This document shows, piece by piece, positions 1,504 through 16,373 of a stretch of 16,373 bases of DNA; position 1 is the first letter of the stretch, and each line of letters begins with the position of its first letter. Source of the stretch: Cohaesibacteraceae bacterium (lineage in GTDB: Bacteria > Pseudomonadota > Alphaproteobacteria > Rhizobiales > Cohaesibacteraceae); assembly GCA_016764535.1 (NCBI GenBank), contig JAESRR010000182.1, positions 1 to 16,373 of the forward strand. Direction: 5' to 3'. Under the pieces are notes generated by a model. That model searched no databases, was not told the DNA's origin, and was given only the letters and a program-made list of their open reading frames with translations. The translations under genes were made by a program, and so were the position numbers.

Positions 1504-2766
1504 TCAATGGCCAGGTAACTTATCCGAATGTTTCCTCGATCGAGATTTTAGAGAAATGTGAATTTCCGCTTGATCATTCAAATCTGAATTATTCAAGGAA
1601 ATGTTCTTTAGCCGAACTCGACGCGCAGGCATGCATCGATGTAATCTTCGGTACGCAATGTCATCGCCAAACCTGATTTCTATAATACCGGTGTAGGGCT
1701 TTGTTACATGCATGCACAAATCAAAATGGGTCCTGCCCAATTTGGGAATCCGCACGATACTGGGCGTTGTCAACCTGATCCCTTCGTCGTGCTGTACTTC
1801 AACTGTGTCTGTGATTGTTTGCCCCTGTTGCAGAATTGCAGCCACAGCAACTCCAGCAGATTTACCTTCAATATAACATTGGTCACCCATATCAGCTGGA
1901 TGTGTTGCATTACCGACAACCGAGATTTGAAGATCAGAACTGAGCCAGTTTTGATCAACCTTCGGGATCCGCGTTTTAGAATTTAACTTCAAATGCCCTT
2001 CATGTGCGAGGCTATTTTCTCCAACAAAGTTCCCCGAAAAAATAATACTGTCACAGGCAAGTGTTCTGCTCTCTGAATTAGCGTTCAAAATTTCGATTTT
2101 TCTCGTATCAAACATGTCACCAATATCTGCAACAATCGTGTTGTAATATATAGGTACGCCCAACAAACGAGCAAATAATGCAGCTGGACGATAGGCAGTG
2201 ATGCGTGAATTTTTTTCTATCATTGCAACCGGTTTTATCCCTGCGGCCCTGAGCGTCCAGATTGCTGAAAAACTTACCAATTCTGTCCCGACGATAACCG
2301 GCTTGAGAAAGGGATACAGTTTTATTGTATTCACGAACTGTTGCAGAGCACCCGTCGTTATTATTCCTCTGGGGCGAAGTCCTGATATCAACCTTCCATG
2401 ACGCGGTGTCTCGCGCGCGCCTGTGGCAATTATAATATGCCGCGCCCTTATCGTTTTAAGTCCATCGAGTGTTGCCAGATCAAGTTGACCATTCCTTTTC
2501 ACAGCCACTACAGTTGTGGTGGTTTCAAAGTGAACACCCGGACATTGTCGCAAAAGACATTTGATGAATTTAGGACCAGACATGGGGCGTTTAAAGACCA
2601 AAAGTCCAAAGCTGGGATGGTTCGTGTGGCGGGGTATGCCACCAATTCGGGTCTCTCGCTCAAAAACAACAATATTTTTGACACCCGCTTTTACGAGTGC
2701 GGTCGCAGCACCTATTCCGGACGGGCCAGACCCTATCACAACGACATCATAATCGAATTTATTCAT
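1504..2766 (-). CDS. GlpB-like FAD-dependent oxidoreductase subunit (pyridine nucleotide-disulphide oxidoreductase fold)
   Basis: This is a 420-residue flavoprotein. The N-terminus has the FAD Rossmann motif GSGPSG at 12-17 with the acidic residue at the end of strand 2 (E36), then GGIPRH at 42-47, and the second FAD motif ATGARETPR at 114-122. The place where NAD(P)H-using relatives have GxGxxG reads GTELVSFSA, so the nicotinamide site looks degenerate, and no CxxC redox disulphide is present. The C-terminal part ending in '..RRLHRCMPARRVRLK' matches the tail of GlpB-like partners of GlpA-type dehydrogenases. The ATG overlaps the stop of the upstream GlpA-like gene by four bases (ATGA), so translation is coupled and the two products probably form a complex. 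It most likely relays electrons from the partner's FAD rather than acting as a reductase. The exact substrate is unknown. Confidence 0.85.
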   Translation of the reverse strand: MNKFDYDVVVIGSGPSGIGAATALVKAGVKNIVVFERETRIGGIPRHTNHPSFGLLVFKRPMSGPKFIKCLLRQCPGVHFETTTTVVAVKRNGQLDLATLDGLKTIRARHIIIATGARETPRHGRLISGLRPRGIITTGALQQFVNTIKLYPFLKPVIVGTELVSFSAIWTLRAAGIKPVAMIEKNSRITAYRPAALFARLLGVPIYYNTIVADIGDMFDTRKIEILNANSESRTLACDSIIFSGNFVGENSLAHEGHLKLNSKTRIPKVDQNWLSSDLQISVVGNATHPADMGDQCYIEGKSAGVAVAAILQQGQTITDTVEVQHDEGIRLTTPSIVRIPKLGRTHFDLCMHVTKPYTGIIEIRFGDDIAYRRLHRCMPARRVRLKNISLNNSDLNDQAEIHISLKSRSRKHSDKLPGH

Positions 2767-4211
2767 GCTTCCGGAACCTGAGGGTCTTTATCCGATGTCT
2801 GACAGGCGAGCAATTGTGTAATTCGTGCGCTACAATAAAACCCGTTGCACCGGCCCATCATCGCGCGCGTTCGCCGACGTAAACCCTCCGTGTTTCTCGC
2901 GGGAATATCACTGGAAAGTGCACGCTCAATTTCTCCGCGCGTCACATTTTCGCAATGACAAACGATTTCTGTACCGTCGCCTTTTTGGAATGCACGGATT
3001 TTATCCTGGGCCAAATTCGGCATTTGTGGCCAGGAGGGCAATTCCGCCAGACTAAATTTGCAGATATCAGCAAAATTTTGGGTACACAGATGCTCCACGT
3101 ACATAGCTATACCCAGAGCCGAAGTTAAACCGGTAGAACGAATGCCGTTCACACCTATCCAGTTTTTGTTGCGGGTGGCGGTAATTTGATAGTCGGCGAA
3201 CTGTGTTGCTGGGCGTAGCCCGGCATAGGTTGCTGTAACGGGGTGGGCACGCAATCCCGGTAACATTCTGCTCCCGGTTTCGATGAGTTCCCGAAGTTTG
3301 TCATGATCAACCCTGGCTTCCCATCTATCTACCTGTTCTTCAGCCGTTGGCCCCAATAACAAATTTCCGAATATAGTTTTTGTCAGTACCACACCTTTGG
3401 TAATCGCTGTTGGAACCGGCAATATTATGGAATTGATCAAACCGGATGCACTTTTGTCGAATACCAAAAACTGCCCTTTGCGTGGGCGAATTTCAAAATC
3501 CGGTTTACGGCAAATTTCTTCAATATGATCCCCGTTGGTTCCGGTGCAGTTAATTATCAGCGATCCACAATATTCATTGGCATTAGTCGTTAAACGCCAA
3601 TAATTACCATCGAATGTGCCGCCGGAGACCTCTGCATTAAACCTGTATTCTGCACCTGCCCTGACTGCTTGCGTCAAATAGGCCAGAGGGGTGCTCCAGG
3701 GGTCAATCACAAATTCACGTGGAACTTCAACTGCACCAAGCGCAAGATTTGCCAGGCCAGGCTCTCGAATGAGAAGTGCATTTCGATCAACCAGCCTGAC
3801 GTCGTTAATGCGGTTGTTATGAGCTTTCTTTACAATCTGGCTCAAACCAGCTAGCTGCGTTTCATTCCACGCGACAATCAGGGCTCCTGTTTTCAATGTT
3901 GGCAGGTTCAACCTGGGAGCAAGGTCCAGATACGCGTCATAACCAGACTTTATACATGCAAGCTCCAGGCTGTCCGAAGGCGCATCAAATCCTGTGTGAA
4001 GAATTGCACTATTTGCCTTACTGGCTCCCGAGAGGATGTCTGCGCCTCGTTCCAACATCAGCACTCTCGCACCCGACAAAGCAAAATTCCGGGTTATCGC
4101 GCAGCCTACAACACCTCCACCAATTACGATCACATCAAAGGACAGCCCGGCAATATTGCCATTCCCATTGGTTCTTACAGGCTTTTTATTCATTGAAGTT
4201 GTCCTGACCAT
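2763..4211 (-). CDS. GlpA/LhgO-like FAD-dependent dehydrogenase with BFD-like [2Fe-2S] domain
   Basis: A 482-residue protein with two domains. Residues about 25-390 form a DAO-type FAD domain: GGGVVG at 31-36, E54 at the end of strand 2, and the 'GASKANSAILHTGFD' segment typical of glycerol-3-phosphate dehydrogenase and L-2-hydroxyglutarate oxidase relatives. Residues about 415-465 form a BFD-like [2Fe-2S] domain with ligand candidates C418, C420, C455 and C460 (CxC...Cx4C). It is the catalytic subunit expected to oxidise a hydroxy acid or polyol phosphate and pass electrons to the coupled GlpB-like subunit. No GlpC-type iron-sulphur anchor lies in the window. The start is well supported by GGAGGTGA (4219-4226 on the complement), 9 nt upstream of the ATG; an internal ATG at codon 7 is less likely. 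It is transcribed divergently from the ABC importer, so it is probably co-regulated from the shared control region. Confidence 0.88.
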   Translation of the reverse strand: MVRTTSMNKKPVRTNGNGNIAGLSFDVIVIGGGVVGCAITRNFALSGARVLMLERGADILSGASKANSAILHTGFDAPSDSLELACIKSGYDAYLDLAPRLNLPTLKTGALIVAWNETQLAGLSQIVKKAHNNRINDVRLVDRNALLIREPGLANLALGAVEVPREFVIDPWSTPLAYLTQAVRAGAEYRFNAEVSGGTFDGNYWRLTTNANEYCGSLIINCTGTNGDHIEEICRKPDFEIRPRKGQFLVFDKSASGLINSIILPVPTAITKGVVLTKTIFGNLLLGPTAEEQVDRWEARVDHDKLRELIETGSRMLPGLRAHPVTATYAGLRPATQFADYQITATRNKNWIGVNGIRSTGLTSALGIAMYVEHLCTQNFADICKFSLAELPSWPQMPNLAQDKIRAFQKGDGTEIVCHCENVTRGEIERALSSDIPARNTEGLRRRTRAMMGRCNGFYCSARITQLLACQTSDKDPQVPEA

Positions 4212-4499
4212 CTGTCAATCACCTCCTACCGTTGAAAGGCAACCAGCAATTGACAGCATCCATTTGTAAAACGTAATTGGCTCCATCCAGAACTTGAAAC
4301 CTAGCCTGAAGTTTTGGGTATAGCAACTCCACATATGTGATTTATATCCACATTAATTGCAAAAAACATTTACAAACCTTCATAAATTTGCATTTATGTG
4401 GTTATTGATCGTACAAATGTGACATATTAAATGAGCTGTACTCAACCTGAAAATTGGTTGAGAGTGCCAAAGCACCAGCTCGAATTGCAGGAGGAAAGA
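4212..4499. promoter_or_regulatory. Divergent control region between the GlpA-like gene and the ABC operon
   Basis: This AT-rich 288-bp region must hold the promoters of both operons. Five copies of the half-site ATGTGR or its complement YCACAT lie within 95 bp: 4329-4334, 4335-4340, 4348-4353, 4396-4401 and 4418-4423. The first two abut to give the palindrome CACATATGTG (4330-4339). A second palindrome is at 4381-4398. Near the GlpA-like side, CCAGAACTT (4287-4295) and AAGTTTTGG (4309-4317) can form a stem with one G-U pair, possibly in that gene's leader. TTATTG (4402-4407) and TATTAA (4425-4430), 17 bp apart, could be a weak sigma70-type promoter for the ABC operon. The DeoR-family regulator at the end of the operon is the obvious candidate to bind here (inference). 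Confidence 0.65.
4381..4398. promoter_or_regulatory. Palindromic operator candidate (7-bp arms)
   Basis: CATAAAT at 4381-4387 and ATTTATG at 4392-4398 are perfect inverted repeats separated by four bases. The site sits in the divergent control region about 100 bp before the binding-protein start codon and overlaps one ATGTGR half-site (4396-4401). Its position and symmetry suit a repressor or activator site; the DeoR-family protein encoded at 11794-12552 is a candidate ligand. No binding data are implied. Confidence 0.45.
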
Positions 4500-6509
4500 A
4501 TGGGGAAAATTCGAAATAAATTGACGCTTTACGTGCTTGCGGGTCTGCTATCCGCCGGTGTGACGGGAGCGCAGGCTGAAGGTCAATCGGCAACCGCCAA
4601 TGACACTTTGGGCATAAATGTGACACACGCGAACCAGATTGAACTTCGGGATTTTGAGGCCCAGACAGGAAGCAAACTGATTGTGCGAGGCAATCCATTG
4701 TTTGCGAAACGCGAAGCATCTGGAAGTTTGCCATCTGTCACGGAACGTCTTCCTGAAGATATTCTGGTTGTTCTTCCAATTGAACGAATTGGGACTTATG
4801 GCGGCACATTGCGCGGAGCAGCCGGCGCACTTGAATCCGGCACTTCGGAAATTCTGTCGTGGCGTCAGGTCAATCTGGTGCGACTTGATCCAACCGACAA
4901 CTCCATTGTTCCAGATGTTGCCAAATCATGGGCCTGGAATGATGATAAAACAGAAATTACCTTTACTCTGCGTAAAGGCCATAAATGGTCTGACGGCAAC
5001 GATTTCACTTCTGATGACGTGGTGTTCTGGGTTAACGACATCATGCGCAACAAGGAGCTTACACCCGCAGTCTGGGGAAACTGGTCACATGGCGAAGCAA
5101 CTGTCCAGGTAACCAAAATTGATGATCAGAATTTTACATTCAAATTTGCCAAACCAAATCCTGTATTTTTGCATTATATTGCAACCAGTGGTTCATATTT
5201 CACACCCTGGGCAGCTTCGCATGTCTTGAAACAATACCACGCAGATTATAGCGACGGTGCCAATGCTGCAGCGGTCAAAGCTGGTTACGAAGACTGGAAA
5301 GATCTATTCAAGCGCTATTATCATAAATGGAAAGACGCTGTAACTGCGACTGAAAAAGGACTGGATGTTCCGACACTTGAAAGCCATGTACTTGCTTCAG
5401 CCACTGATGGGCAAACACGAAATTTCATCGCAAATCCCTACTATTTTAAAGTAGACAGCTCTGGCCAGCAACTGCCATATATTGACAAACATAACGAGCG
5501 TTTCCTTGAGAACCAAATCTGGGCTCTTGAAGTTATTAGCGGTAACATTGATCAAAAATCCCAGAACGTAAATCTGGCTGATTATCCCTTATTTAAGGAA
5601 AATGAAGTTCGTGGCGACTACACTGTTAGCCTGGACAAGGGTCAAATTGGACCAGTACTGGTGTTCAATTACACCATTTCAGACGAGAGCAAGCAATTCG
5701 CCTATAACAGCGTAAAATTTCGCAATGCAATGTCAGTTGCGATCAACCGTCCCGAACTGGTTGAGGAACTATTCCTGGGATTGGCAAATACCGATCAGGC
5801 GATGCCTGCCGGGGTCAAATTTTCAACCGATGCGCAGCGGGCCCATATGACCGGGTTCAATCCGGATCTGGCCAATAGAATGCTGGACGAACTGGGAATG
5901 ACCCGGAGAGATGCTGATGGATTTCGGATGTCACCATCCGGTGATGACTTCAAAATATTTTGGGAATATTCCCTTCAGTTCACTCGTTCTCCCGAATTCC
6001 CTCTGTTAATCGCAGAATACTGGCGCGCTGTTGGTATCGATGTGCTTTTAAAAGAAGTCACAACCGAGCTTTTGCGCGAAAAAGAAAGCCTGAATACTCT
6101 GGAAATCTCGATGGAATGGGACCTGCCATTTGCGTGGAACCTGCTTGCTGAACCATCTATTTATTCCGCGCCATGGAGTGCGAGCGGTGTGGTCACCGGA
6201 GCACCCTGGGCAAACTACATGAACTCGAATGGTGCGGAAGGTGTTGAGCCCCCTGCATGGGTTGTCAAATTGCGGGAAGTTGCAATGGCATTCTCGGGAA
6301 GCCAGCCAGGTACCGATGAATACCTGGATCTGGGTTCAAAGTTGATTGGACTGAATCTTGATAACATGGTGATCATTGGAACCGCTGGAGCGGTCCCGCA
6401 GATCAATGTGATTTCCAATAAACTGGCTAATGTTCCGTCATGGCACCTAAACGCCTATCGGGCAGGAATGGCCAATTCGCAACAAGCGGACCAATGGTCT
6501 TTTAAATAA
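4500..6509 (+). CDS. ABC transporter periplasmic substrate-binding protein, family 5 (long form)
   Basis: The start is placed at the ATG at 4500, 5 nt after AGGAGG (4489-4494), not at the in-frame ATG at 4431; this gives 669 residues. Residues 1-26 are a Sec signal peptide (basic GKIRNK, hydrophobic core, cleavage after AQA), with no lipobox cysteine, so the mature protein is free in the periplasm. The YGGTLR element at 100-105 opens the SBP_bac_5 fold, and 'TFTLRKGHKWSDG' follows with the family signature region (W-S-D-G, then T-S-D-D-V). At 669 residues it is longer than the roughly 530 of OppA/DppA; this long 'LPxxxERLP...GTYGGTLR' type is known in alphaproteobacteria and resembles oligosaccharide-binding members as much as peptide-binding ones. 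It is the first gene of the importer operon and sets its substrate, which cannot be read from sequence. Confidence 0.9.
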   Translation: MGKIRNKLTLYVLAGLLSAGVTGAQAEGQSATANDTLGINVTHANQIELRDFEAQTGSKLIVRGNPLFAKREASGSLPSVTERLPEDILVVLPIERIGTYGGTLRGAAGALESGTSEILSWRQVNLVRLDPTDNSIVPDVAKSWAWNDDKTEITFTLRKGHKWSDGNDFTSDDVVFWVNDIMRNKELTPAVWGNWSHGEATVQVTKIDDQNFTFKFAKPNPVFLHYIATSGSYFTPWAASHVLKQYHADYSDGANAAAVKAGYEDWKDLFKRYYHKWKDAVTATEKGLDVPTLESHVLASATDGQTRNFIANPYYFKVDSSGQQLPYIDKHNERFLENQIWALEVISGNIDQKSQNVNLADYPLFKENEVRGDYTVSLDKGQIGPVLVFNYTISDESKQFAYNSVKFRNAMSVAINRPELVEELFLGLANTDQAMPAGVKFSTDAQRAHMTGFNPDLANRMLDELGMTRRDADGFRMSPSGDDFKIFWEYSLQFTRSPEFPLLIAEYWRAVGIDVLLKEVTTELLREKESLNTLEISMEWDLPFAWNLLAEPSIYSAPWSASGVVTGAPWANYMNSNGAEGVEPPAWVVKLREVAMAFSGSQPGTDEYLDLGSKLIGLNLDNMVIIGTAGAVPQINVISNKLANVPSWHLNAYRAGMANSQQADQWSFK

Positions 6510-6529
6510 GGAACTTTGGGCTTGAATAA

Positions 6530-6565
6530 TAGTTGCAGGAAGTGCCTTGTGCCTTTCTGCAACTA
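6530..6565 (+). promoter_or_regulatory. Intercistronic stem-loop after the binding-protein gene
   Basis: TAGTTGCAG at 6530-6538 and CTGCAACTA at 6557-6565 pair perfectly, and the stem continues inward with a G-U, two A-U and one G-C pair to about 13 bp around a 10-nt loop. It begins 21 nt after the binding-protein stop codon. The first T-run comes six bases after the stem, so it is a poor rho-independent terminator. It more likely protects the 3' end of a processed binding-protein mRNA, as seen with stem-loops after other periplasmic binding-protein genes. Confidence 0.6.
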
Positions 6566-6606
6566 CAAAATTTTTATAAACCTTTTGACATTTTGGGACA
6601 GCTAAC

Positions 6607-6631
6607 AAACCCTGTAACCAGGTTTTTGTTT
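6607..6631 (+). terminator. Terminator-like hairpin before the first permease (possible partial attenuator)
   Basis: AAACCCTG (6607-6614) pairs with CAGGTTT (6619-6625) with one bulged C and a 4-nt loop, and is followed directly by TTGTTT (6626-6631). The stem is short with few G-C pairs, so any termination would be leaky. It ends 24 nt before the proposed permease start codon. Together with the upstream stem-loop it would lower permease and ATPase expression relative to the binding protein. Confidence 0.4.
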
Positions 6632-6655
6632 CACCGAAACACGGGGGAATTGTGT

Positions 6656-7651
6656 GTGCTCTTACTGCAAAAAATTCTGACCCGACTGGGTGTATCAGCC
6701 TTGATGTTGGGAATGGTTTCAATCATCGCCTTCATAATTGTAAGTCTTCCCCCGGGGGATTTCGCAGATGCCTACGCTGCCGCCAAAATAAACAGCGGTG
6801 AAACAGTGACCAGAGCCGAACTTGAATCTATTCGAGTCCGTTTTGGTTTGGATCGTCCACTGTATGTTCAATACTTTCAATGGGTTGGAAAAATGTTCCA
6901 TGGTGATTTTGGTTTCTCATGGGGTTATAGCCGCCCGGTGGTGGAAGTGATTTCAGAGCGTTTGCCTATGACAATCGTTATCGCGGTCAGCACATTAATA
7001 TTTACCTATGCCACTGCGATCCCACTGGGCATTTATTCAGCTATTCGGCAATATTCCGTGGCTGACTATACATTTACAATTATTGGTTACATCGGGCTCG
7101 CTACTCCAAATTTTCTGTTCGCTTTGATTTTGCTGTTTTTTGCCAATCAGGTCTTTGGCGTCAGCGTCGGCGGATTATTTTCTCTTGAATATCAGGATGC
7201 TCCATGGACCTGGGCAAAAGTACTGGATTTGCTATCGCATCTCTGGGTACCGGTTTTGGTTCTCGGGACGGCGGGGACGGCCTTTCAACTAAGGATCATG
7301 CGCTCAACATTGCTTGAAGAGTTGAACAAAATGTATGTCACCGCTGCCCGCGCAACAGGCCTCAGTGAGTTCAAGCTTATCATGAAGTACCCTGTCCGGC
7401 TGGCACTCAACCCCATTGTATCGACATTGGGTTGGGAACTAACAACCGTAATCTCGGGAGCACCGATCATTGGACTTGTACTCTCCCTGCCCGATACCGG
7501 GCCAATGTTTGTGAATGCGTTACGGAGTCAGGACATGTACCTCGCCGGTGCAATGCTCCTGATCTATTGTGTACTGGTTATGATTGGGTCTTTCATTTCA
7601 GACGTTCTATTGATGCTTGTCGATCCCCGCGTAAAACTGGGAGAAGACTAA
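6656..7651 (+). CDS. ABC transporter permease, OppB/DppB type
   Basis: A 331-residue inner-membrane permease (BPD_transp_1). The start is set at GTG 6656: a GGGGGA element at 6643-6648 lies 7 nt upstream, and the protein then begins VLLLQKILTRLGVSALML, the normal OppB N-terminus running straight into the first membrane helix. The open frame extends back to 6533 but that stretch runs through the two intercistronic stem-loops and has no homologous character. The 'SLPPGDFADAY' after helix 1 and 'RFGLDRPLYVQYFQW' are family hallmarks. The EAA loop that contacts the ATPases reads TAARATGLSEFKLIMKYPV, about 60% along the chain. Its stop is followed by one base and then the second permease start, so the two are co-translated. 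Confidence 0.9.
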   Translation: MLLLQKILTRLGVSALMLGMVSIIAFIIVSLPPGDFADAYAAAKINSGETVTRAELESIRVRFGLDRPLYVQYFQWVGKMFHGDFGFSWGYSRPVVEVISERLPMTIVIAVSTLIFTYATAIPLGIYSAIRQYSVADYTFTIIGYIGLATPNFLFALILLFFANQVFGVSVGGLFSLEYQDAPWTWAKVLDLLSHLWVPVLVLGTAGTAFQLRIMRSTLLEELNKMYVTAARATGLSEFKLIMKYPVRLALNPIVSTLGWELTTVISGAPIIGLVLSLPDTGPMFVNALRSQDMYLAGAMLLIYCVLVMIGSFISDVLLMLVDPRVKLGED

Positions 7652-7652
7652 A

Positions 7653-8771
7653 ATGGTCAGTTCTCAAACGACAATTGGCATCAATCCGGTCAATAGACTG
7701 GATCTGGCGACTTCCCGCCAGTTAATGTGGTACAAATTTCGAAGACATCGTTTGGCGATGACTGGATCAATAATCATCCTGCTTTTTGCAATCATTTCAA
7801 TATTTCCTGAATTCTTGACACCCACTGGTCCGCAAATCCGCGACACAAAGTATACATCCGGTCCCCCTACTTTTGTTCATATCCTTGACGAGACCTACAC
7901 ACCGCATCTCCCATTCATTTATGGGAGAACAATCACGCGGCATCCTGTGACATTGCGCAAGATCTCCAGAGTTGACGTATCCGTTCGCATACCCGTTCGG
8001 TTCCTTGTACGAGGGCACAAATACAAATTTCTCGGATTCTTTTCTGCAGATCTTCATCTGTTTGGAACAGACAGCGCCCAGGTTCATCTGTTTGGAACAG
8101 ACAAGCTGGGAAGAGACATATTTACCCGAACAATCTATGCAACACGCGTATCTATTTCAATCGGTGTAATTGGTGTCCTGGCTGCATTTATTATTGGTCT
8201 GGCTGTCGGTGGTCTTGCCGGACTTAGGGGCGGAATTGTTGATAGTGTGATCATGCGTCTGATTGAGCTAATTCGGTCAATTCCCAGCCTTCCTCTCTGG
8301 CTGGGGCTTGCTGCAGCACTGCCGCGCGAATGGTCGGCACTACAAGTTTATGTTGTGGTGACACTCATACTTGCTGCGCTGGGCTGGACAACACTTGCAA
8401 GAAGAGTACGAAGCAAACTGCTCACCCTCAGGAACGAGGATTTCGTCCAGGCAGCTCGTCTTGCCGGCTGCTCGGACACACGGCTGGTTTACAAGCATAT
8501 GTTACCTGCATTCATGAGTTATCTGATTGTCGACCTAACTGTGGCATTTCCATATATTTTGTTGGCGGAAACAACGCTGAGTTTCCTGGGACTTGGAATG
8601 CGTGAGCCAATGGTGAGTTGGGGCGTATTGTTATTCTCGGCACAAAATGTCACGGCACTTGCCCATACGCCCTGGTTATTAATTCCTGGCGCGTTTATAA
8701 TTCTGATCGTTATTGCTTTCAATTTCTTCGGAGATGGACTTCGCGATGCGGCCGACCCATATTCAAATTAG
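7653..8771 (+). CDS. ABC transporter permease, OppC/DppC type, long-loop form
   Basis: A 372-residue inner-membrane permease. An OppC_N-type cytoplasmic N-terminus ('SRQLMWYKFRRHRLAM') leads into the first helix; a long periplasmic segment of roughly 100 residues follows before the FGTDKLGRDIF motif that marks the start of the core permease domain. The EAA loop reads QAARLAGCSDTRLVYKHMLP. Ordinary OppC proteins are near 300 residues; the long-loop form goes with long family-5 binding proteins and may help docking (inference). Within the loop, HLFGTD occurs twice, ten residues apart, and the underlying DNA repeats exactly over 21 bases (see separate entry). It starts one base after the OppB-type stop and ends seven bases before the first ATPase. 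Confidence 0.9.
   Translation: MVSSQTTIGINPVNRLDLATSRQLMWYKFRRHRLAMTGSIIILLFAIISIFPEFLTPTGPQIRDTKYTSGPPTFVHILDETYTPHLPFIYGRTITRHPVTLRKISRVDVSVRIPVRFLVRGHKYKFLGFFSADLHLFGTDSAQVHLFGTDKLGRDIFTRTIYATRVSISIGVIGVLAAFIIGLAVGGLAGLRGGIVDSVIMRLIELIRSIPSLPLWLGLAAALPREWSALQVYVVVTLILAALGWTTLARRVRSKLLTLRNEDFVQAARLAGCSDTRLVYKHMLPAFMSYLIVDLTVAFPYILLAETTLSFLGLGMREPMVSWGVLLFSAQNVTALAHTPWLLIPGAFIILIVIAFNFFGDGLRDAADPYSN
8053..8103 (+). repeat. In-frame 30-bp-period direct repeat in the OppC-type gene
   Basis: Bases 8053-8073 recur identically at 8083-8103, a 21-base match with 30-bp spacing, so the protein reads HLFGTDSAQVHLFGTDKLGR. The second copy is the conserved GTDxLGRD motif. The perfect match at third codon positions suggests recent local duplication or conversion rather than selection on protein alone. 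Long-loop relatives may have a diverged LFG-D stretch here, so it may not be a net insertion. Confidence 0.85.
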
Positions 8772-8778
8772 AGCCCGG

Positions 8779-9819
8779 ATGATGACACAAGAATACCTTC
8801 TCAAAGTTGAAAACCTGACTATCTCACTGGACCTTGCAGAAAATTCGCTCCCCATTGTTCAAAATATTAGTTTTTCAATAAATCCGGGTCGGGTTTTTGC
8901 ACTGGTCGGTGAAAGCGGGAGTGGCAAAACGGTCGTTTCCCTGTCTCTTTTGCAATTGCTGGGCAAAGGCGTAAAAATTTCAACCGGCAAAATCCTGTTT
9001 CGCAAACCGGGAGGAGAGCCCGTCGACATTGCGGCGATGCACCCAACAGGCAAAGAAATTCAAGGACTGCGGGGAGCTGAAATTGGAATGATCTTTCAGG
9101 AACCGATGAGCTCATTTTCACCTGTTCACACGATCGGCAATCAGGTTGAAGAAGTTATCCGGTTGCACATGGATCTGAACAAGAAGCAAATTCGTGTCCG
9201 CGCCATTGAGATGTTAAGGAAAGTTGGTATCACCGATCCCGAACGCGCTATCAAACAATATCCATTTGAATTTTCAGGTGGTATGCGGCAACGCGCCATG
9301 ATCGCACGTGCACTGGCATGTAACCCTGCTTTACTGATTGCAGATGAGCCTACAACTGCACTCGATGTGACCATTCAGGCACAAATTCTGAAACTGATGA
9401 AATCACTTCAGAGCGAATTAAATATGGCCAATCTGTTCATCTCACATAATATCGGTGTCATAGCCCAAATTGCTGATGACGTTGCTATTATGTATATGGG
9501 TAAAATTGTTGAGCAAGGCCCCGTTCGAGCTATTCTTGGAAACCCTCAACATCCATATACAAAAGGCTTGTTGCGCGCTATTCCACACCTTGAAGACATT
9601 GGACGGGGAAGAAAACTGGAGCCAATAGCAGGCACTGTTCCAAGCCTTTACGAGCGCCCGGGTGGATGCCCATTCGCAGCAAGATGTAGCTCTTTCATTG
9701 AAGGAGTTTGTAATAAATCCTTTCCAAACGGTCACAATGTCGATGAAGAGCATGTGGTGTTTTGTCACGATTTAATTCAAAACCATAGCGCCGACCAAAA
9801 CAACGAGGCCGTAGCATGA
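8779..9819 (+). CDS. ABC transporter ATPase, OppD/DppD type
   Basis: A 346-residue cytoplasmic ATPase. Visible motifs: Walker A GESGSGKT at 44-51, Q-loop MIFQEP around 104-109, signature FSGGMRQR from 165, Walker B LLIADE at 185-190 with D-loop ALD at 194-196, and switch H223. The C-terminal oligo_HPY extension carries four cysteines (C297, C303, C311, C329) in the pattern CPFAARC...C...C typical of OppD/DppD proteins; in some Opp systems this cluster binds iron-sulphur. ATG at 8779 (or 8782) is chosen because it follows the permease stop by seven bases and matches the family N-terminus; the frame is open back to 8713, inside the permease gene. The Shine-Dalgarno site is weak, so translational coupling is likely. 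It forms a heterodimer with the next gene's product. Confidence 0.92.
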   Translation: MMTQEYLLKVENLTISLDLAENSLPIVQNISFSINPGRVFALVGESGSGKTVVSLSLLQLLGKGVKISTGKILFRKPGGEPVDIAAMHPTGKEIQGLRGAEIGMIFQEPMSSFSPVHTIGNQVEEVIRLHMDLNKKQIRVRAIEMLRKVGITDPERAIKQYPFEFSGGMRQRAMIARALACNPALLIADEPTTALDVTIQAQILKLMKSLQSELNMANLFISHNIGVIAQIADDVAIMYMGKIVEQGPVRAILGNPQHPYTKGLLRAIPHLEDIGRGRKLEPIAGTVPSLYERPGGCPFAARCSSFIEGVCNKSFPNGHNVDEEHVVFCHDLIQNHSADQNNEAVA

Positions 9820-10832
9820 CCAATTTGATCGAAATAACAGATCTTTCGGTGGAATTCAGGGGGCCAAAAAATGGTTTTTTCCGCAAAAAAAGCTCCCCTG
9901 TTCATGCAGTAGATAACGTGTCACTCAACATTGTAAAAGGCGAAGCGCTTGGTTTGGTTGGAGAAAGTGGCTCCGGAAAAACCACATTGGGAAGAGCATT
10001 GCTAAGGTTGGTGGAGCCAACTACCGGGCAGGTTCATATGAACTCAACCGATGGTAAAAGGAACATAACTTCACTTGATGCCAAACAGCTGCGTAAAGCC
10101 TGGCAGAATATGCAGATGGTTTTCCAGGACCCACAGTCGTCTTTAAACCCGCGCATGACAGTGATGGATACCATCGCCGAATCCTTGCTGGTGAATGGCA
10201 TAGCAAAAAATATCAGAGATGCAAAAACCCGGGTCGTTGAAGTAGCAGAAAGTTGCGGTCTTTCATCAGATCAACTGAACCGATATCCGCACGCTTTTAG
10301 TGGCGGGCAAAGGCAACGCATTTCAATAGCACGCGCGTTGGTAACCAAGCCCGAGTTCATCATTTGCGACGAACCTGTGTCTGCGCTTGATGTATCTATT
10401 CAGGCTCAAATTCTAAATCTACTTTGTAAACTTCAGGAAGAAATGGATCTGACACTTCTATTTATTTCTCACGATCTAATTGTTGTTGCTTACATTTGCG
10501 ACCGCATCGCTGTGATGTATCTGGGAAATATTATAGAAATAGCACCCACCAAAACTCTGTTCAACAATCCAATGCACCCCTACACCGAAGCCTTGATTTC
10601 GGCGATCCCATCAAACAACCCGGATGATATAACAGGCGAAACATTGTTGGCCAGTGACGCCCCAGGCAGCGCAGGAGAACGCAAGGGATGTCTATTTAGT
10701 CCTCGTTGTCGCTATGCAGATGGCAAAAAATGTTCGACTATTAAACCCGCACTCACAGATACGGGAGATGGCCGAATGGTTGCCTGCCATTTTGCTGAAA
10801 AACTCTCTCTCACCGGATTTGGTAATCATTAG
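9816..10832 (+). CDS. ABC transporter ATPase, OppF/DppF type
   Basis: A 338-residue ATPase whose ATG overlaps the previous stop by four bases (ATGA). Motifs: Walker A GESGSGKT at 49-56, Q-loop VFQDPQSSLNPRM around 102-114, signature FSGGQRQR from 161, Walker B FIICDE at 181-186, and switch H219. The N-terminal 'KNGFFRKKSSPVHAVDNVS' insertion and the 'SSLNPRMTV' segment are typical of OppF rather than OppD. The C-terminal oligo_HPY region again has four cysteines (GCLFSPRC...C...C). With the preceding ATPase and the two permeases it completes the importer, giving the order SBP-B-C-D-F. Confidence 0.92.
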   Translation: MTNLIEITDLSVEFRGPKNGFFRKKSSPVHAVDNVSLNIVKGEALGLVGESGSGKTTLGRALLRLVEPTTGQVHMNSTDGKRNITSLDAKQLRKAWQNMQMVFQDPQSSLNPRMTVMDTIAESLLVNGIAKNIRDAKTRVVEVAESCGLSSDQLNRYPHAFSGGQRQRISIARALVTKPEFIICDEPVSALDVSIQAQILNLLCKLQEEMDLTLLFISHDLIVVAYICDRIAVMYLGNIIEIAPTKTLFNNPMHPYTEALISAIPSNNPDDITGETLLASDAPGSAGERKGCLFSPRCRYADGKKCSTIKPALTDTGDGRMVACHFAEKLSLTGFGNH

Positions 10833-10910
10833 AAATTACAGGCACGACGCTCCATTTGTCCCTGCAAATCGGCCAGCATACTATGCGGGTTCCAGAATAA
10901 AGATAATAGG

Positions 10911-11753
10911 ATGAAAATACTTCACATATCGGATATTCATTTTGGGCCATACCACTGGGCAGCCGACGATGCTCTGGTTCTGGACAAACTGAATGCCACG
11001 AATGCGGACATCATTCTAAATACAGGAGATTTAACTTCGGATTCCCTCGAAGATGAATTTCAGGCGGCACAAAAATTTCTATCCAAATTAGCCTGCCCAC
11101 ATTTGATCTCAATAATGGGAAACCATGACAAATACTCCAGGAGATCTCACGAAATGTTTCGAAAATACATTTATGACGGCGAGTTCATCCAGCCAAAAAA
11201 CACCGCCAAAATTCACAAGAACAAAGTCTATATTTGCCCAAAAACTGCGCGACTTGAAAATTATTTTACTGAAGTAAATTACATAAGATCATTCGAAATC
11301 GATAAACAGAAAATCTTGGTGATTTGCCTGGATACAAACCTGTTCCAATGTGATCAGGGGAAAGTGGACGAGCAGATATTAGCTGCACTGGAAGTTGAAA
11401 TCAGGGCTATCAAATTCGATCGCGCTTTATTAATGACCCATCATTCCCTGCTTTCAACGGATGACGATCCCCTAATCAATTCGAAACGCGTCACCGATTT
11501 TGTACTGAGAGCAGGAATTGAAGCAACTTTTTGTGGTCATACCCATGAACTGGATATGGTGGAAGTTTCTGACTTGATCCGCGGCAATAAATTTCGTCAA
11601 TTTATGTGTGGATCATTATCTTCAGTCAACATTCCACGTGAAGACAACATGTTTTGTACTTACGATAATTTTGGTACCCCGGAAGAAATAATTACAATTA
11701 CCCGAATGCATCAATTGGAACGTGGAATAGAGTTTGTTGAAACCGTCGTATAA
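10911..11753 (+). CDS. Class-III metallophosphoesterase (GpdQ/CpdA-like), cytoplasmic
   Basis: A 280-residue calcineurin-like phosphoesterase with the full set of di-metal ligands: DxH at D8/H10, GD at 39-40, GNHD at 70-73, a His at 177/178 in 'LLMTHHS', and GHTH at 209-212. The family hydrolyses phosphomonoesters or phosphodiesters, including cAMP (CpdA) and glycerophosphodiesters (GpdQ). There is no signal peptide, so it acts in the cytoplasm on imported or internal substrate. It lies 78 bp after the OppF-type gene on the same strand, with an AGG directly before the ATG and no good Shine-Dalgarno site; the start is fixed by the MKILHISDIHFG N-terminus. Its place between an importer and a GlpR-like regulator suggests it processes the transported compound (inference). 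No close family member is identified. Confidence 0.85.
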   Translation: MKILHISDIHFGPYHWAADDALVLDKLNATNADIILNTGDLTSDSLEDEFQAAQKFLSKLACPHLISIMGNHDKYSRRSHEMFRKYIYDGEFIQPKNTAKIHKNKVYICPKTARLENYFTEVNYIRSFEIDKQKILVICLDTNLFQCDQGKVDEQILAALEVEIRAIKFDRALLMTHHSLLSTDDDPLINSKRVTDFVLRAGIEATFCGHTHELDMVEVSDLIRGNKFRQFMCGSLSSVNIPREDNMFCTYDNFGTPEEIITITRMHQLERGIEFVETVV

Positions 11754-11793
11754 CGTCAGGAACGATCCTGGTGATTTCATTAAAGGAACTATT

Positions 11794-12552
11794 GTGAAAT
11801 CAGGCGAACGCATACAATCAATTAAATCATTACTCGACTTGTATGGTCGTGTGTCCGTTGTTGAGCTGGCTAAACAATTCGGAGTGGCCCAGGAGACTAT
11901 CCGACGCGATATCGTAAAGTTGGAAAAAGACGGTGTCGCGCGCAAAATTCACGGTGGTGCCGTCACCTCTCGCAACAAATATGAACAAACACTGGCGGCA
12001 AGATTCAAGCATCAAATACCACAAAAGCATGATGTTGCGCGACTGGCCGCAGGCTTAATCTTGCCCGGAAGCACTCTGTTTATTGATTTTGGTACAACAA
12101 CAAATGTCTTTGCTGAACAAATCAAACACCTGTCGGATTTGACGGTTTTCACGAATTCACATCTTATTGCAGCCACGATGTCGGAAAATCCGGAAAACGA
12201 GATTATTGTACTTGGTGGCAGATATGACGGTTCGGTTAAAGCTAATCTGGGGCCAATGGTTATCAACGGGGTCAGCCAGTTTCTGGCCGATTTTGCAGTG
12301 ATTGGAATTGGCGGAATTGACAGGAAATTCGGATTCTCCAATCAAAACATTGAAGAGGCGACGGTGGCACGCAGCATGATTGATCGCAGTGCTGAAACAA
12401 TTATCCTCGCAGACCCTGGCAAATTCAACCGTCATGGCATTGCGCACGTGGCGGATTTCCATCAGATCGACTATCTTGTAAGTTCGGAAATGCCCGACGA
12501 AGAACTTTGTGATGTACTATCCCGGGGAAATGTTTCGCTGGTTACTTCCTAA
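11794..12552 (+). CDS. DeoR/GlpR-family transcriptional regulator
   Basis: The start is GTG 11794, 6 nt after AAGGA (11783-11787), giving 252 residues, the usual DeoR length; an upstream TTG at 11734 would overlap the phosphoesterase gene and add non-family residues. Residues 5-57 form the winged-helix HTH_DeoR domain (GRVSVVELAKQFGVAQETIRRDI region, then KIHGGAV). Residues about 75-235 form the DeoRC sensor, related to phosphosugar isomerases, with GTTT at 100-103, FTNS, GGRY, the G-GGID block and LADPGKF. Effectors of this family are phosphorylated sugars or polyols. It is the last gene of the importer operon, 40 bp after the phosphoesterase, so it probably governs this locus through the divergent control region and feeds back on itself. 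Confidence 0.9.
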   Translation: MKSGERIQSIKSLLDLYGRVSVVELAKQFGVAQETIRRDIVKLEKDGVARKIHGGAVTSRNKYEQTLAARFKHQIPQKHDVARLAAGLILPGSTLFIDFGTTTNVFAEQIKHLSDLTVFTNSHLIAATMSENPENEIIVLGGRYDGSVKANLGPMVINGVSQFLADFAVIGIGGIDRKFGFSNQNIEEATVARSMIDRSAETIILADPGKFNRHGIAHVADFHQIDYLVSSEMPDEELCDVLSRGNVSLVTS

Positions 12553-12667: not shown

Positions 12668-14842
12668 CTATCCATTCCCTTGCCCATACCCAAGTTGCGT
12701 ATTCAAATCCTGGATGAGATCTTGAGCAGCCTCGGCAATTACTGTTCCAGGCGGAAATATAGCGGAAGCTCCCGCGGCATAGAGTTCTTCGAAGTCCTGA
12801 CGCGGAATTACGCCTCCCACCACAATCATGATATCTTCCCGGCCTTCCTCAACAAGTGCAGCGTGTAGTGCCGGGACGAGTGTCAGGTGCCCGGCTGCAA
12901 GTGAAGACGCCCCTATAATGTGAACATCATTTTCCACCGCCTGGCGTGCTGCTTCTGCCGGTGTTTGAAACAAGGGGCCGATATCAACATCAAATCCGAG
13001 ATCTGCAAATGCAGATGCGATAACTTTTTGACCGCGATCATGACCATCCTGCCCCATCTTGGCAACAAGTATGCGTGGCCGACGGCCGTCCTTGCGTTCA
13101 AATGTTTTAACCAGTGACAAAACTTTTTGCACTGCTTCGTTCATTTGTCCGATTTCCTGTCTGTAGACCCCCGAAATAGATCTTATTTCCGCACGATGGC
13201 GGCCAAAAACCTCTTCCAAAGCCAATGTTATTTCGCCGACAGTTGCCATCGCCCTGGCAGCAACAACAGAAAGGTCAAGCAAATTTCCTTCACCGGTTTT
13301 AGCACATTTTGTTAAAGCAGAAAGTGCCGCTTTTGTTTTGGCCCAATCGCGTTCTTCACGAAGGCGTTTGAGTTTTGCCAGTTGTTGAGCCCGGACCGCC
13401 GAATTGTCCACCTTCAGAACTTCAATTTGTTCTTCGTTTTCAATTTGATATTTGTTAACACCCACAACAGTCTGCTGACCGCTGTCAATGCGAGCCTGGG
13501 TTTTCGCCGCAGCTTCCTCAATCCGCAGTTTCGGAATTCCGGCTTCTATCGCTTTTGCCATACCGCCCAATTCTTCAATTTCGGCAATGTGTTTCAATGC
13601 TTTGATCGCAAGATCAGACGTCAATTTTTCAACGTAAAAAGAGCCGCCCCAGGGATCAATAACATTTGTAGTGCCACTTTCCTGCTGAAGAAATAGTTGT
13701 GTGTTTCGTGCAATTCGAGCCGAAAAATCAGTTGGCAACGCCAGCGCTTCATCAAGAGCGTTGGTGTGCAATGACTGGGTATGCCCCTGAGTTGCAGCCA
13801 TTGCCTCGATTGTTGTTCTTGGAACGTTGTTAAACACATCCTGTGCGGTTAAAGACCACCCGGATGTCTGACAGTGCGCACGTAAACTTAATGATTTTGA
13901 ATTTGTCGGTGAAAATTCTTCATCAACCAGTTTTGCCCAAATCAAACGGGCAGCACGCATTTTTGCAACTTCCATGAAGAAATTCATTCCCACAGCCCAG
14001 AAAAAACTAAGGCGCGGCGCAAAAACATCAATATCCAGCCCGCCTTTAACTCCGGCGCGGATGTATTCAATTCCATCTGCAATTGTGTAGGCCAGCTCCA
14101 AATCAGCTGTCGCACCCGCTTCCTGCATATGATAACCGGATATCGAAATCGAATTGAATTTGGGCATTTTTTCCGACGTATAGGCAAATATATCTGCGAT
14201 TATTCTCATCGACGGTTCGGGAGGAAATATGTAGGTATTCCGAACCATGAATTCCTTCAGAACGTCGTTTTGAATTGTACCGGAAAGTTGTTCCTTTGAG
14301 ACACCCTGTTCTTCCGCAGCAGCAATGTACAATGCCATAATCGGTAACACGGCACCGTTCATGGTCATGGAGACACTCATTTTATCGAGCGGTATGCCAT
14401 CAAACAACGTCCGCATATCGTATATACTGTCTATGGCAACACCGGCCATACCCACATCACCTGGCACTCTTTCATGGTCACTGTCATACCCACGATGGGT
14501 CGCCAGATCAAATGCGATTGAAAGGCCTTTTTGGCCCGCAGCGAGATTCCTGCGATAGAATGCGTTGGAATCTTCCGCCGTTGAAAAACCGGCATACTGC
14601 CTGACCGTCCAGGGCCGCTGGGTATACATAGTTGGATAGGGACCACGTAGATATGGCGCTACTCCCGGCCATGTATCAAGAAAATCCAGACCCGCAACAT
14701 CTGACGCATCATATGAAGTTTTAACCTCGATACCTTCGGGAGTCTGCCAACCTTCACACTCGTTTTTTGGCGAGAGATTTGATTTCTGTCCTTCTTTAAA
14801 AGCCACATTGGAAAAATCTGGAATACGGGATCTGATGCTCAT
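12668..14842 (-). CDS. Methylmalonyl-CoA mutase large (catalytic, B12-binding) subunit
   Basis: A 724-residue enzyme converting (R)-methylmalonyl-CoA to succinyl-CoA with adenosylcobalamin, in propionyl-CoA, odd-chain fatty acid and branched-chain amino acid breakdown. The N-terminal TIM barrel shows the long conserved runs of the catalytic subunit: [34 protein letters not shown], and [10 protein letters not shown]. The C-terminal cobalamin-binding domain has the base-off/His-on motif DGHDRG at 599-604 and the GG of VVGGVIP near 676-677. The start is the ATG at 14842, which overlaps the small-subunit stop (ATGA) and has GGGAG 7 nt upstream; the frame extends back to 14875 only within the small-subunit gene. 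Length is normal for the family. It is convergent with the DeoR gene. Confidence 0.95.
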
Positions 14843-16373
14843 GATTTCGCTCCCATATCCACTACATTGTGACATTCATTGAGGATGCTCAACAAATCGC
14901 AGCCATCATATAAAAATGTTTCAACACCCGCCGCTTTTAGATCATCGGTGAGCGCGCCTCCGCGTCCTGCAATAATTATTTTGGCTGCACCGGCCTGGTG
15001 TAACAATCTTGCTGCCTCAACCGCTATCTCATCGTAAACAGTATCGGAGGAACAAATACAAACAACACTGTTTCCACTTTGAACAAATACGTTTTGAAGG
15101 GATTTCAGGTCTTCAAATCCTGCTGATTGTAAAACTGCAAACCCACCGGCCTCAAAAGCAGTCTGACTCCATGCCGAGCGCCCGGCGTAATCTTTTCTCT
15201 GCCCAAGATTGGCAATGAATATGGAAGATCGCCGACCGCCTGGCAGAGTGAACTTAACTGCCCGCTCCCTCAAATTCTCCCATGGCTCAGCCAATCGAAC
15301 AGGCACAAATGAATTTATTTCGGCAACCGGGTCATTGATATCTGCTTGAGGATTGACCGGAACATTGAGAACATTCGCTTTTGCTTCATCCAGATTGGGA
15401 AATGCGGAAGTTCCCGTGATCTGGATTTTCCGGGTTGCCACCTTAAGGTCACGCCCTGTTCGGGTGTTTGTAATCTGATCGTGTAACAATCCGCTTTCAA
15501 GACAGGCGACCAACCCTCCGGATTGTTCCATTTTCTGAAACTCTGCCCAGGCAGCTTTCGCCAGTTCCAGCGTGAGACTTTCAATATAACCAGATCCAAA
15601 CCCCGGATCTTCAACTCTGTGAACATTACTTTCTTCGAGTAACAAGGTATGGGAATTTCGTGCAATCCTTCGGGCGTGGGAATTTGGCAACCCTTCTGCC
15701 AAAGTATATGGCAGAATGCAAAGTGACTGAACTCCGCCTGCACCCGCTGCAAATCCAGCAACAGTTGTTCGCAACATATTAACATTGGGATCCTGCCGGG
15801 TCATCATTCTCCAGCTGGTTTCAGCATGTAAACGCAGAGACTTAAATTCAACACCACACGCCCCGGCAACCTGGTTCCAAAGCAACCTTAACGCACGCAT
15901 TTTGGCGAGTGACAAAAATTGGCTGGCATCTGCTACCAGAGTGAACCCAACTGCATTTGCTGCATTTTCAAGCGTCCAGCCTCTAGCCTCAAGGCAGCGT
16001 AGATATGTGACAGCTGTTGCCAAGACTGCCGCCAGCTCCTGAACTTCTCCCGCACCCGCATCATGCCATATTCTTCCATCGGCTTCAAAAAACGGGCCTG
16101 AAAATCCCTGATCCTTCAATTTATCGACACAGTCCGCCGCAACTTCTATATCCAGTTCGTCTGGATTTCCATTTGCAGCATACCCGACGGGATCGAGGCC
16201 AAACGAACACTTCATCTCACCCGGCAGGACCGTTCTGTTTTTAAAAACACCGGCAACAGCTTCCGCAGTTTCAATACCTAACGTGCCACCTTCAATTCGA
16301 AATGCTACAGCATCCAGAACCACGCCTGACAATACTTTTTCAAGAGCATCAATCGGTATTCCAAAACCTCTGG
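14839..16373 (-). CDS. Methylmalonyl-CoA mutase small subunit, 5' part outside window
   Basis: An open frame of 510 visible residues runs off the right edge of the window with no stop upstream; a TTG at 16332 is internal because the frame reads on through [18 protein letters not shown]. Small subunits are usually about 620-680 residues, so roughly the first 110-170 are missing. The barrel domain shows MCM features ('[13 protein letters not shown]', '[24 protein letters not shown]', '[16 protein letters not shown]'). The C-terminal Rossmann-like domain lacks the DxHxxG cobalamin motif, as expected for the non-catalytic partner. It is translationally coupled to the large subunit by an ATGA overlap, giving an alpha-beta heterodimer. 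Confidence 0.93.

Follow-up and report, generated by a model that had tools for sequence, protein, structure and literature searches.

A recurring gene set with a family-5 importer, a metallophosphoesterase and a flavoprotein pair as a candidate phosphodiester uptake and oxidation locus in a Cohaesibacteraceae bacterium

We analyzed a 16,373-nucleotide stretch of DNA (hereafter the window; contig JAESRR010000182.1 of assembly GCA_016764535.1) from a Cohaesibacteraceae bacterium, one stretch of a 3.86-Mb assembly of 302 contigs that is 87% complete, for a candidate nutrient uptake locus of nine genes. On the forward strand lie the five genes of a family-5 (Opp-type) ABC importer: a family-5 solute-binding protein (SBP_bac_5, 669 amino acids; 4500..6509), permeases B (6656..7651) and C (7653..8771), both BPD_transp_1 proteins with Opp4B and Opp4C, respectively, as best NCBIfam models, below cut-off, and the ABC ATPases D (8782..9819) and F (9816..10832), each with an oligo_HPY domain. 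These are followed by a calcineurin-like metallophosphoesterase (MPE; 10911..11753; Metallophos, 2e-18) and a DeoR/GlpR-family regulator with HTH_DeoR and DeoRC domains (11794..12552). In the opposite direction, on the reverse strand, lie a GlpA-like flavoprotein (2763..4211), which combines an FAD-dependent DAO domain with a C-terminal BFD-like [2Fe-2S] domain, and a second flavoprotein, FADB (1504..2766; Pyr_redox_2 in Pfam). A divergent promoter region (4212..4499) separates the two operons and holds a candidate DeoR operator, TGTG-N9-CACA, at 4336..4352. All nine genes are open at these coordinates, and their families, assigned with Pfam and NCBIfam, bear out a preliminary description that had read the importer, metallophosphoesterase, DeoR regulator and divergent flavoprotein pair from the letters alone. 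One SBP_bac_5 protein, two BPD_transp_1 permeases and two oligo_HPY ATPases together constitute a family-5 (Opp/Dpp) importer. Three starts were corrected: for the binding protein, position 4500 is likelier than the 4431 of the listed reading frame, with GGAGG upstream and a length equal to that of the protein-database copy, and ~6656 (listed from 6533) and 11794 (listed from 11734) are the likelier starts of the first permease and the regulator. An Rfam scan of the window gave no match.

We then evaluated how often this gene set recurs. A scan for MPE over one genome per species yielded 13 loci, all in metagenome-assembled genomes (MAGs) and 44-67% identical. An importer ATPase gene lies immediately upstream of MPE in five of them (L009, L011, L013, L017, and L021), and a DeoR gene adjoins MPE in six (L009, L010, L011, L013, L017, and L018; reversed in L017), the stretch of L010 starting 251 bases before MPE and so showing no upstream gene context. 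When the 13 MPE genomes and the window's own were searched for the remaining locus genes, four (G444, G446, G448, and G452) were found to hold them, with binding proteins 64-73% and GlpA proteins 65-68% identical to those of the window. Only G446 has the locus in one piece, contig ends dividing it in the other three: L131/L011 carries all nine genes and a GlpK-like FGGY gene, and elsewhere the nine are spread over contig breaks (L127 with L013; L128 with L009; L129 with L145 and L017). In G453, a piece of GlpA stands beside MPE and DeoR with no importer between, and in G445 and G456, where MPE is present, a genome search found no orthologous binding protein. Because all nine genes recur, whole or contig-split, in four other MAGs, the set is, judging from these neighborhoods, a recurring unit beyond chance neighborhood, and MPE also exists apart from it. 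The gene-order search that the preliminary description had proposed was thus positive, and the co-occurrence it expected of importer, phosphoesterase, and flavoproteins holds in these four MAGs and fails where MPE stands apart. MPE matches at E ≤ 1e-3 occur in 27 of 61 genomes (its own and 60 relatives), the best beyond its own genome being 1.1e-9 over 79 residues, and at E ≤ 1e-40 only its own genome among 385 genomes of the class has one, which indicates that the MPE-bearing form is rare there. Against a plasmid collection, MPE gave a single partial match, to Mesorhizobium and covering 25% of the query, and the binding protein matched 497 plasmid records, none at ≥60% identity and the best at 35%.

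Neighboring genes of the window do not share this recurrence. A SIS-domain gene (557-1273), sugar isomerase-like (NCBIfam PRK02947, 203 bits, over the cut-off of 135), and methylmalonyl-CoA mutase-like genes read by eye at 12668-16371 are both absent from the related stretches L127, L128, L129, and L131, and were rejected as parts of the locus. Several related stretches have features of their own: two tandem MPE genes behind an importer ATPase in a Spirochaetia MAG (L021:907-2627); a Na/Pi cotransporter-like gene directly downstream of FADB (L131:7205-8893), perhaps for phosphate balance; next to FADB in L127:8988-19148, another family-5 importer, 28% identical, together with a gene that by eye resembles a beta-galactosidase; and, in a Nitrincolaceae genome (L014:5639-10843), an ABC importer of family-1 type, a GDPD gene matched in two stretches, LacI-like and inositol-monophosphatase-like genes, and then MPE, ~2.8 kb from the GDPD gene.

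MPE has no obvious signal peptide when read by eye, and its earlier description as cytoplasmic is therefore fair. Its calcineurin-like fold and metal-ligand motifs are present: DxH, GD, GNHD, HH, and GHTH are invariant in 15 aligned rows, as are D8, H10, D40, N71, H177, H178, H210, and H212, which we take to be the metal ligands. The glycerophosphodiesterase GpdQ of Enterobacter aerogenes, which has the same fold, was the top match in a profile search of solved structures (E 3e-7), aligning with residues 1-74 only, whereas fold comparison placed a sphingomyelinase-like enzyme first, 2.4 Z ahead, with GpdQ at 20-21% identity.

A clue to the role of MPE comes from loci in which it is replaced. 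The binding protein was searched for in the 385 class genomes, which were evenly drawn from a larger group, with three candidates scored per genome; at E ≤ 1e-85 it was found in 12 genomes at 13 places, six of these genomes forming a sister clade. In all six, a PehA-type hydrolase lies behind the importer (at the contig end in L118, where 136 residues of it are present) and a divergent DeoR gene is present (a piece in L147); a choline-kinase-like gene and GlpA-FADB accompany them in five, and the sixth (G260) has GlpA-FADB on another contig. The PehA family of phosphoric/sulfuric ester hydrolases occupies the position of MPE in this clade, but has the sulfatase fold (PF00884) and is unrelated to it; the window has no PehA match, MPE occupying that role instead. 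The PehA-type proteins scanned (L135, L172, and L117, the last cut by the stretch end) reach 333-493 bits against an NCBIfam cut-off of 900, so that the name is a loose one. Surroundings are mixed at the other six class places, where the binding protein is 35-38% identical and PehA is found once (L153). Since an unrelated phosphodiesterase can apparently take over with the other genes retained, a phosphodiester substrate is favored.

The two operons of the locus may also share a regulator. We compared seven divergent intergenic regions (the window, L127, L128, L129, L130, L131, and L132), selected for a close DeoR in the locus or for MPE-clade membership, and found exact TGTG-N9-CACA in six, L129 having one mismatch. 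With spacers of 0 to 20 tested, the only other one seen was 7, in one of the seven regions, and 2000 dinucleotide shuffles per region produced an exact site in 3 to 31; the nine inner bases vary among loci. The site at 4336-4352 is the sole exact match in the window, where, taken alone, it is not significant (0.41 expected; 66 of 200 shuffles). No such site was found at L133, where DeoR is only 34% identical, or in the sister-clade loci L117, L118, L119, L122, and L125, and scattered sites occur elsewhere in L010, L017, L108, and L129. In L132, from Nitrincolaceae, a DeoR 64% identical to that of the window accompanies GlpA-FADB-FGGY without an importer, suggesting that the regulator goes with the flavoproteins.

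For the divergent pair, earlier read as GlpA/GlpB-like, the second half of the name rests on position beside GlpA. The best NCBIfam model of the GlpA-like protein is “type 2 glycerol-3-phosphate oxidase” (225 bits, under the cut-off of 460), the GlpA equivalog of anaerobic GlpABC gives 127 bits (under 552.8), and the closest solved relative is the glycerophosphate oxidase GlpO (4x9m, E 7e-37). H72, K272, R333, and S359, presumably active-site residues, align with 4x9m, and the five MPE-clade rows retain all four; L118 and L124, both APH-linked, lack H72 and K272, and L134 lacks K272. The GlpO-like His and Lys persist in the aligned MPE-clade and FGGY-linked rows. FADB matches no GlpB model among the families listed, and no GlpC was found among the ten window genes scanned, the remaining genome not having been searched for it. 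Where pyridine-nucleotide enzymes carry GxGxxG as their second motif, FADB reads VGTELVSFS and its relatives (alignment A4) share an invariant G-x-E-x-x-x-F (G160, E162, and F166); NAD binding by FADB thus appears doubtful.

GlpA homologues, with at most four candidates scored per genome, occur in 22 of the 385 class genomes (the window's own included) at 23 places, and their context was seen at 21, the window included and the places in G320 and G093 left out. FADB adjoins GlpA at 21 of 21. At 17, a kinase lies beside the pair, glycerol-kinase-like FGGY at nine and choline-kinase-like at eight; there is none at the window, L120 (contig start), L126, and L072. With a glycerophosphate oxidase as best solved relative and an adjoining kinase at most places, the pair fits phosphorylated glycerol-like compounds. 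The FGGY protein of L011 scores 427 bits against a GlpK cut-off of 590, and GlpK above cut-off is present in 13 of 14 genomes (all except G444). Separate GlpK and GlpD genes suggest that GlpA-FADB is not the housekeeping glycerol route.

The nearest solved proteins to the binding protein are 5ipw (1e-69) and SPH1118 (9e-60), and SPH1118 and 6epy are the nearest with known ligands. In a tree that sampled five of the six sister-clade genomes and seven of the 11 other family-5 binding proteins of the window's own genome, the window clade pairs with the sister clade (100/99), a distant clade joins this pair next (100/100), and the remaining family-5 proteins branch outside these. The outer branches of this tree are long and are flagged as unsure. 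Of 13 SPH1118 ligand-contact residues asked for, 11 could be aligned. Nine of these are shared between the window and sister clades, 138 and 380 with a single deviant row apiece, and 576 and 585 set the two clades apart; at G404, F517, E562, and W563, the distant clade departs from the other two. This agreement in the pocket between the window and sister clades speaks for similar ligands. The part of the SPH1118 account available names four pocket arginines (PMC9314435). In 16 of 16 rows, none of these is kept, two rows having Lys in place of one, and galacturonate binding as in SPH1118 was rejected for this reason; dipeptide import was set aside on a weak argument, a DppA match of only E 5e-6.

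The surroundings of the distant clade (17 stretches: L135-L144, L149-L153, L169, and L172) offer further substrate clues. A PehA-type gene is found in eight, PhnW or PhnX in four (L137, L139, L142, and L172), and ethanolamine-pathway-like genes in four, with amidohydrolase, glutamine-synthetase-like, aldehyde dehydrogenase (ALDH), and iron alcohol dehydrogenase (Fe-ADH) genes in L135 and L169 and part of the set in L143 and L144; seven have none of these (L138, L140, L141, and L149-L152). With PehA-type, aminoethylphosphonate, or ethanolamine-pathway-like genes beside them, the importers of L135, L136, L137, L139, L142, L143, L169, and L172, from this second family-5 clade, are candidate phosphonate-ester or phosphoethanolamine-ester importers. 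A distant-clade importer with a sulfatase-like gene occurs in Ruegeria conchae. In Paracoccus albus (L173), GlpA-FADB-FGGY adjoins TRAP, glutamine-synthetase-like, ALDH, and Fe-ADH genes, a set that matches the published gene order of the Phaeobacter ethanolamine locus as far as the available part of its account goes (PMC10132767). The window's own genome holds a complete ethanolamine-type locus in that order at C237 (L183:5291-14155: RpiR, amidohydrolase, TRAP, glutamine-synthetase-like, ALDH, and Fe-ADH). All these assignments were made from similarity and gene order; when five of the glutamine-synthetase-like, ALDH, and Fe-ADH proteins were scanned, none passed the cut-off of any listed NCBIfam family. 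Both contexts favor ethanolamine- or glycerol-bearing phosphodiesters, short of proof for the ligand of the window.

On balance, we consider it somewhat probable that the locus serves phosphodiester uptake and oxidation, with a glycerophosphodiester such as a deacylated phospholipid as the most likely substrate; its ligand, reactions, electron acceptor, and effector are what we infer from gene content, recurrence, the phosphodiesterase swap, and the operator candidate. The binding protein and Opp-type transporter would import the intact diester, MPE would cleave it in the cytoplasm, and GlpA-FADB would oxidize the glycerol-phosphate-like product to a dihydroxyacetone phosphate (DHAP)-like ketone via FAD and a [2Fe-2S] center. 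In some relatives, a glycerol-kinase-like enzyme might first phosphorylate the released alcohol. Through TGTG-N9-CACA, DeoR would keep the two operons repressed until the level of a phosphorylated product rises, making the locus inducible. Recurrence, the common operator candidate, and the phosphodiesterase swap strengthen the uptake-and-oxidation reading of the preliminary description, and the frequent occurrence of MPE outside the locus weakens it. Some observations weigh against the proposal: MPE occurs without importer, DeoR, or GlpA in six of its 13 loci (L012, L014, L015, L016, L019, and L020); the 17 distant-clade stretches yielded no GlpA; and the host holds GlpD (750 bits, beside a DeoR-family gene) and GlpK elsewhere, which leaves room for a product other than plain sn-glycerol-3-phosphate. 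The first two are, in part, the kind of neighborhood that the preliminary description had named as evidence against it. As a tentative conjecture with a small chance of being right, the locus, and GlpA-FADB cassettes in general, might handle a glycerol phosphate outside the range of GlpD, e.g., with GlpA-FADB as the missing catabolic oxidase for sn-glycerol-1-phosphate or a like stereoisomer, for which phosphatidylglycerol head groups, phosphoglycerol-substituted glucans, and archaeal lipids are sources. GlpA-FADB would then come with a dedicated repressor and importer, joined in relatives by a dedicated kinase, and the presence of GlpD and GlpK alongside in the host would make sense.

Among the alternatives, another phosphodiester or phospho-substituted ligand (a sugar phosphodiester, a phosphonate ester, or a phosphoglycerol-substituted oligosaccharide), cleaved likewise and only partly glycerol-like, is possible, at well below an even chance. 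The large binding protein, whose nearest ligand-bound relative holds a trisaccharide, the aminoethylphosphonate genes beside four of the 17 distant importers, and the host's own GlpD would all fit such a ligand, but the glycerol-kinase-like genes beside nine of the 21 flavoprotein pairs do not, and no sugar-processing gene recurs in related loci (by eye). It is improbable that the importer is a plain oligosaccharide importer of SPH1118 type, with the phosphoesterase and flavoproteins in side reactions: its nearest relatives of known ligand and the beta-galactosidase-like gene and second family-5 importer beyond FADB in L127 point that way, whereas the SPH1118 ligand arginines are replaced, two unrelated phosphodiester hydrolase families recur with the importer, and no glycosidase-like gene recurs in related loci (by eye). 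Least probable, MPE would be a cyclic-nucleotide or signaling phosphodiesterase placed in a nutrient importer operon by chance, as the name CpdA on some relatives in source annotations, matches to Rv0805 and sphingomyelinase-like folds as good as that to GpdQ, and its solitary copies might suggest, but PehA substitutes for it in the sister clade with the remaining genes kept, and its L014 copy follows a GDPD gene.

If the phosphodiester proposal is correct, a family-5 importer lineage joins Ugp, Gpx, and the ethanolamine system in the recycling of phospholipid pieces, and one pathway step is filled by two unrelated hydrolase families. It also predicts a function for the recurring unnamed flavoprotein pair and for unnamed importers beside aminoethylphosphonate or ethanolamine genes. 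No description of this gene combination, as a gene set or as chemistry, was found in the open-access literature searched, in line with the impression of the preliminary description that it had not been reported as one pathway; the individual parts are familiar.

In the agrocinopine (acc) system of Ti plasmids, AccR belongs to the DeoR family and AccA to family 5, and the window likewise has a family-5 importer beside a candidate phosphodiesterase and a DeoR-type regulator. The family of AccF differs from that of the calcineurin-like candidate phosphodiesterase of the window, and we know of no flavoprotein pair in acc. AccA chains match the window binding protein at E 2e-4 to 9e-4 only, compared with 1e-69 for 5ipw, so that of the acc parallel drawn earlier, the shared design stands and close kinship was rejected. 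As partly described (PMC4526662), acc combines an ABC importer and periplasmic binding protein with intracellular phosphodiester cleavage and repression that a phosphorylated product of this cleavage lifts. Of marine bacterial glycerol phosphate uptake by Gpx, the available part of the account describes GpxB as a PhnT-family binding protein for monoesters and mentions neither a family-5 importer nor a phosphodiesterase nor a GlpA-like pair (PMC12718374). The proposed chemistry, from diester through glycerol phosphate to DHAP, would be that of Ugp/GlpQ/GlpD and of the Mycoplasma GlpQ-GlpO route (PMC3178575, seen in part), whose GlpO is of the kind closest to the window GlpA-like protein. Unlike the window locus, Ugp/GlpQ/GlpD uses another importer, with UgpB a CUT1-family binding protein in the same partial account (PMC12718374), and another phosphodiesterase, and the second flavoprotein of the window differs as well. 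By this comparison, the locus would work like acc and like Ugp-GlpQ-GlpD, and is a member of neither.

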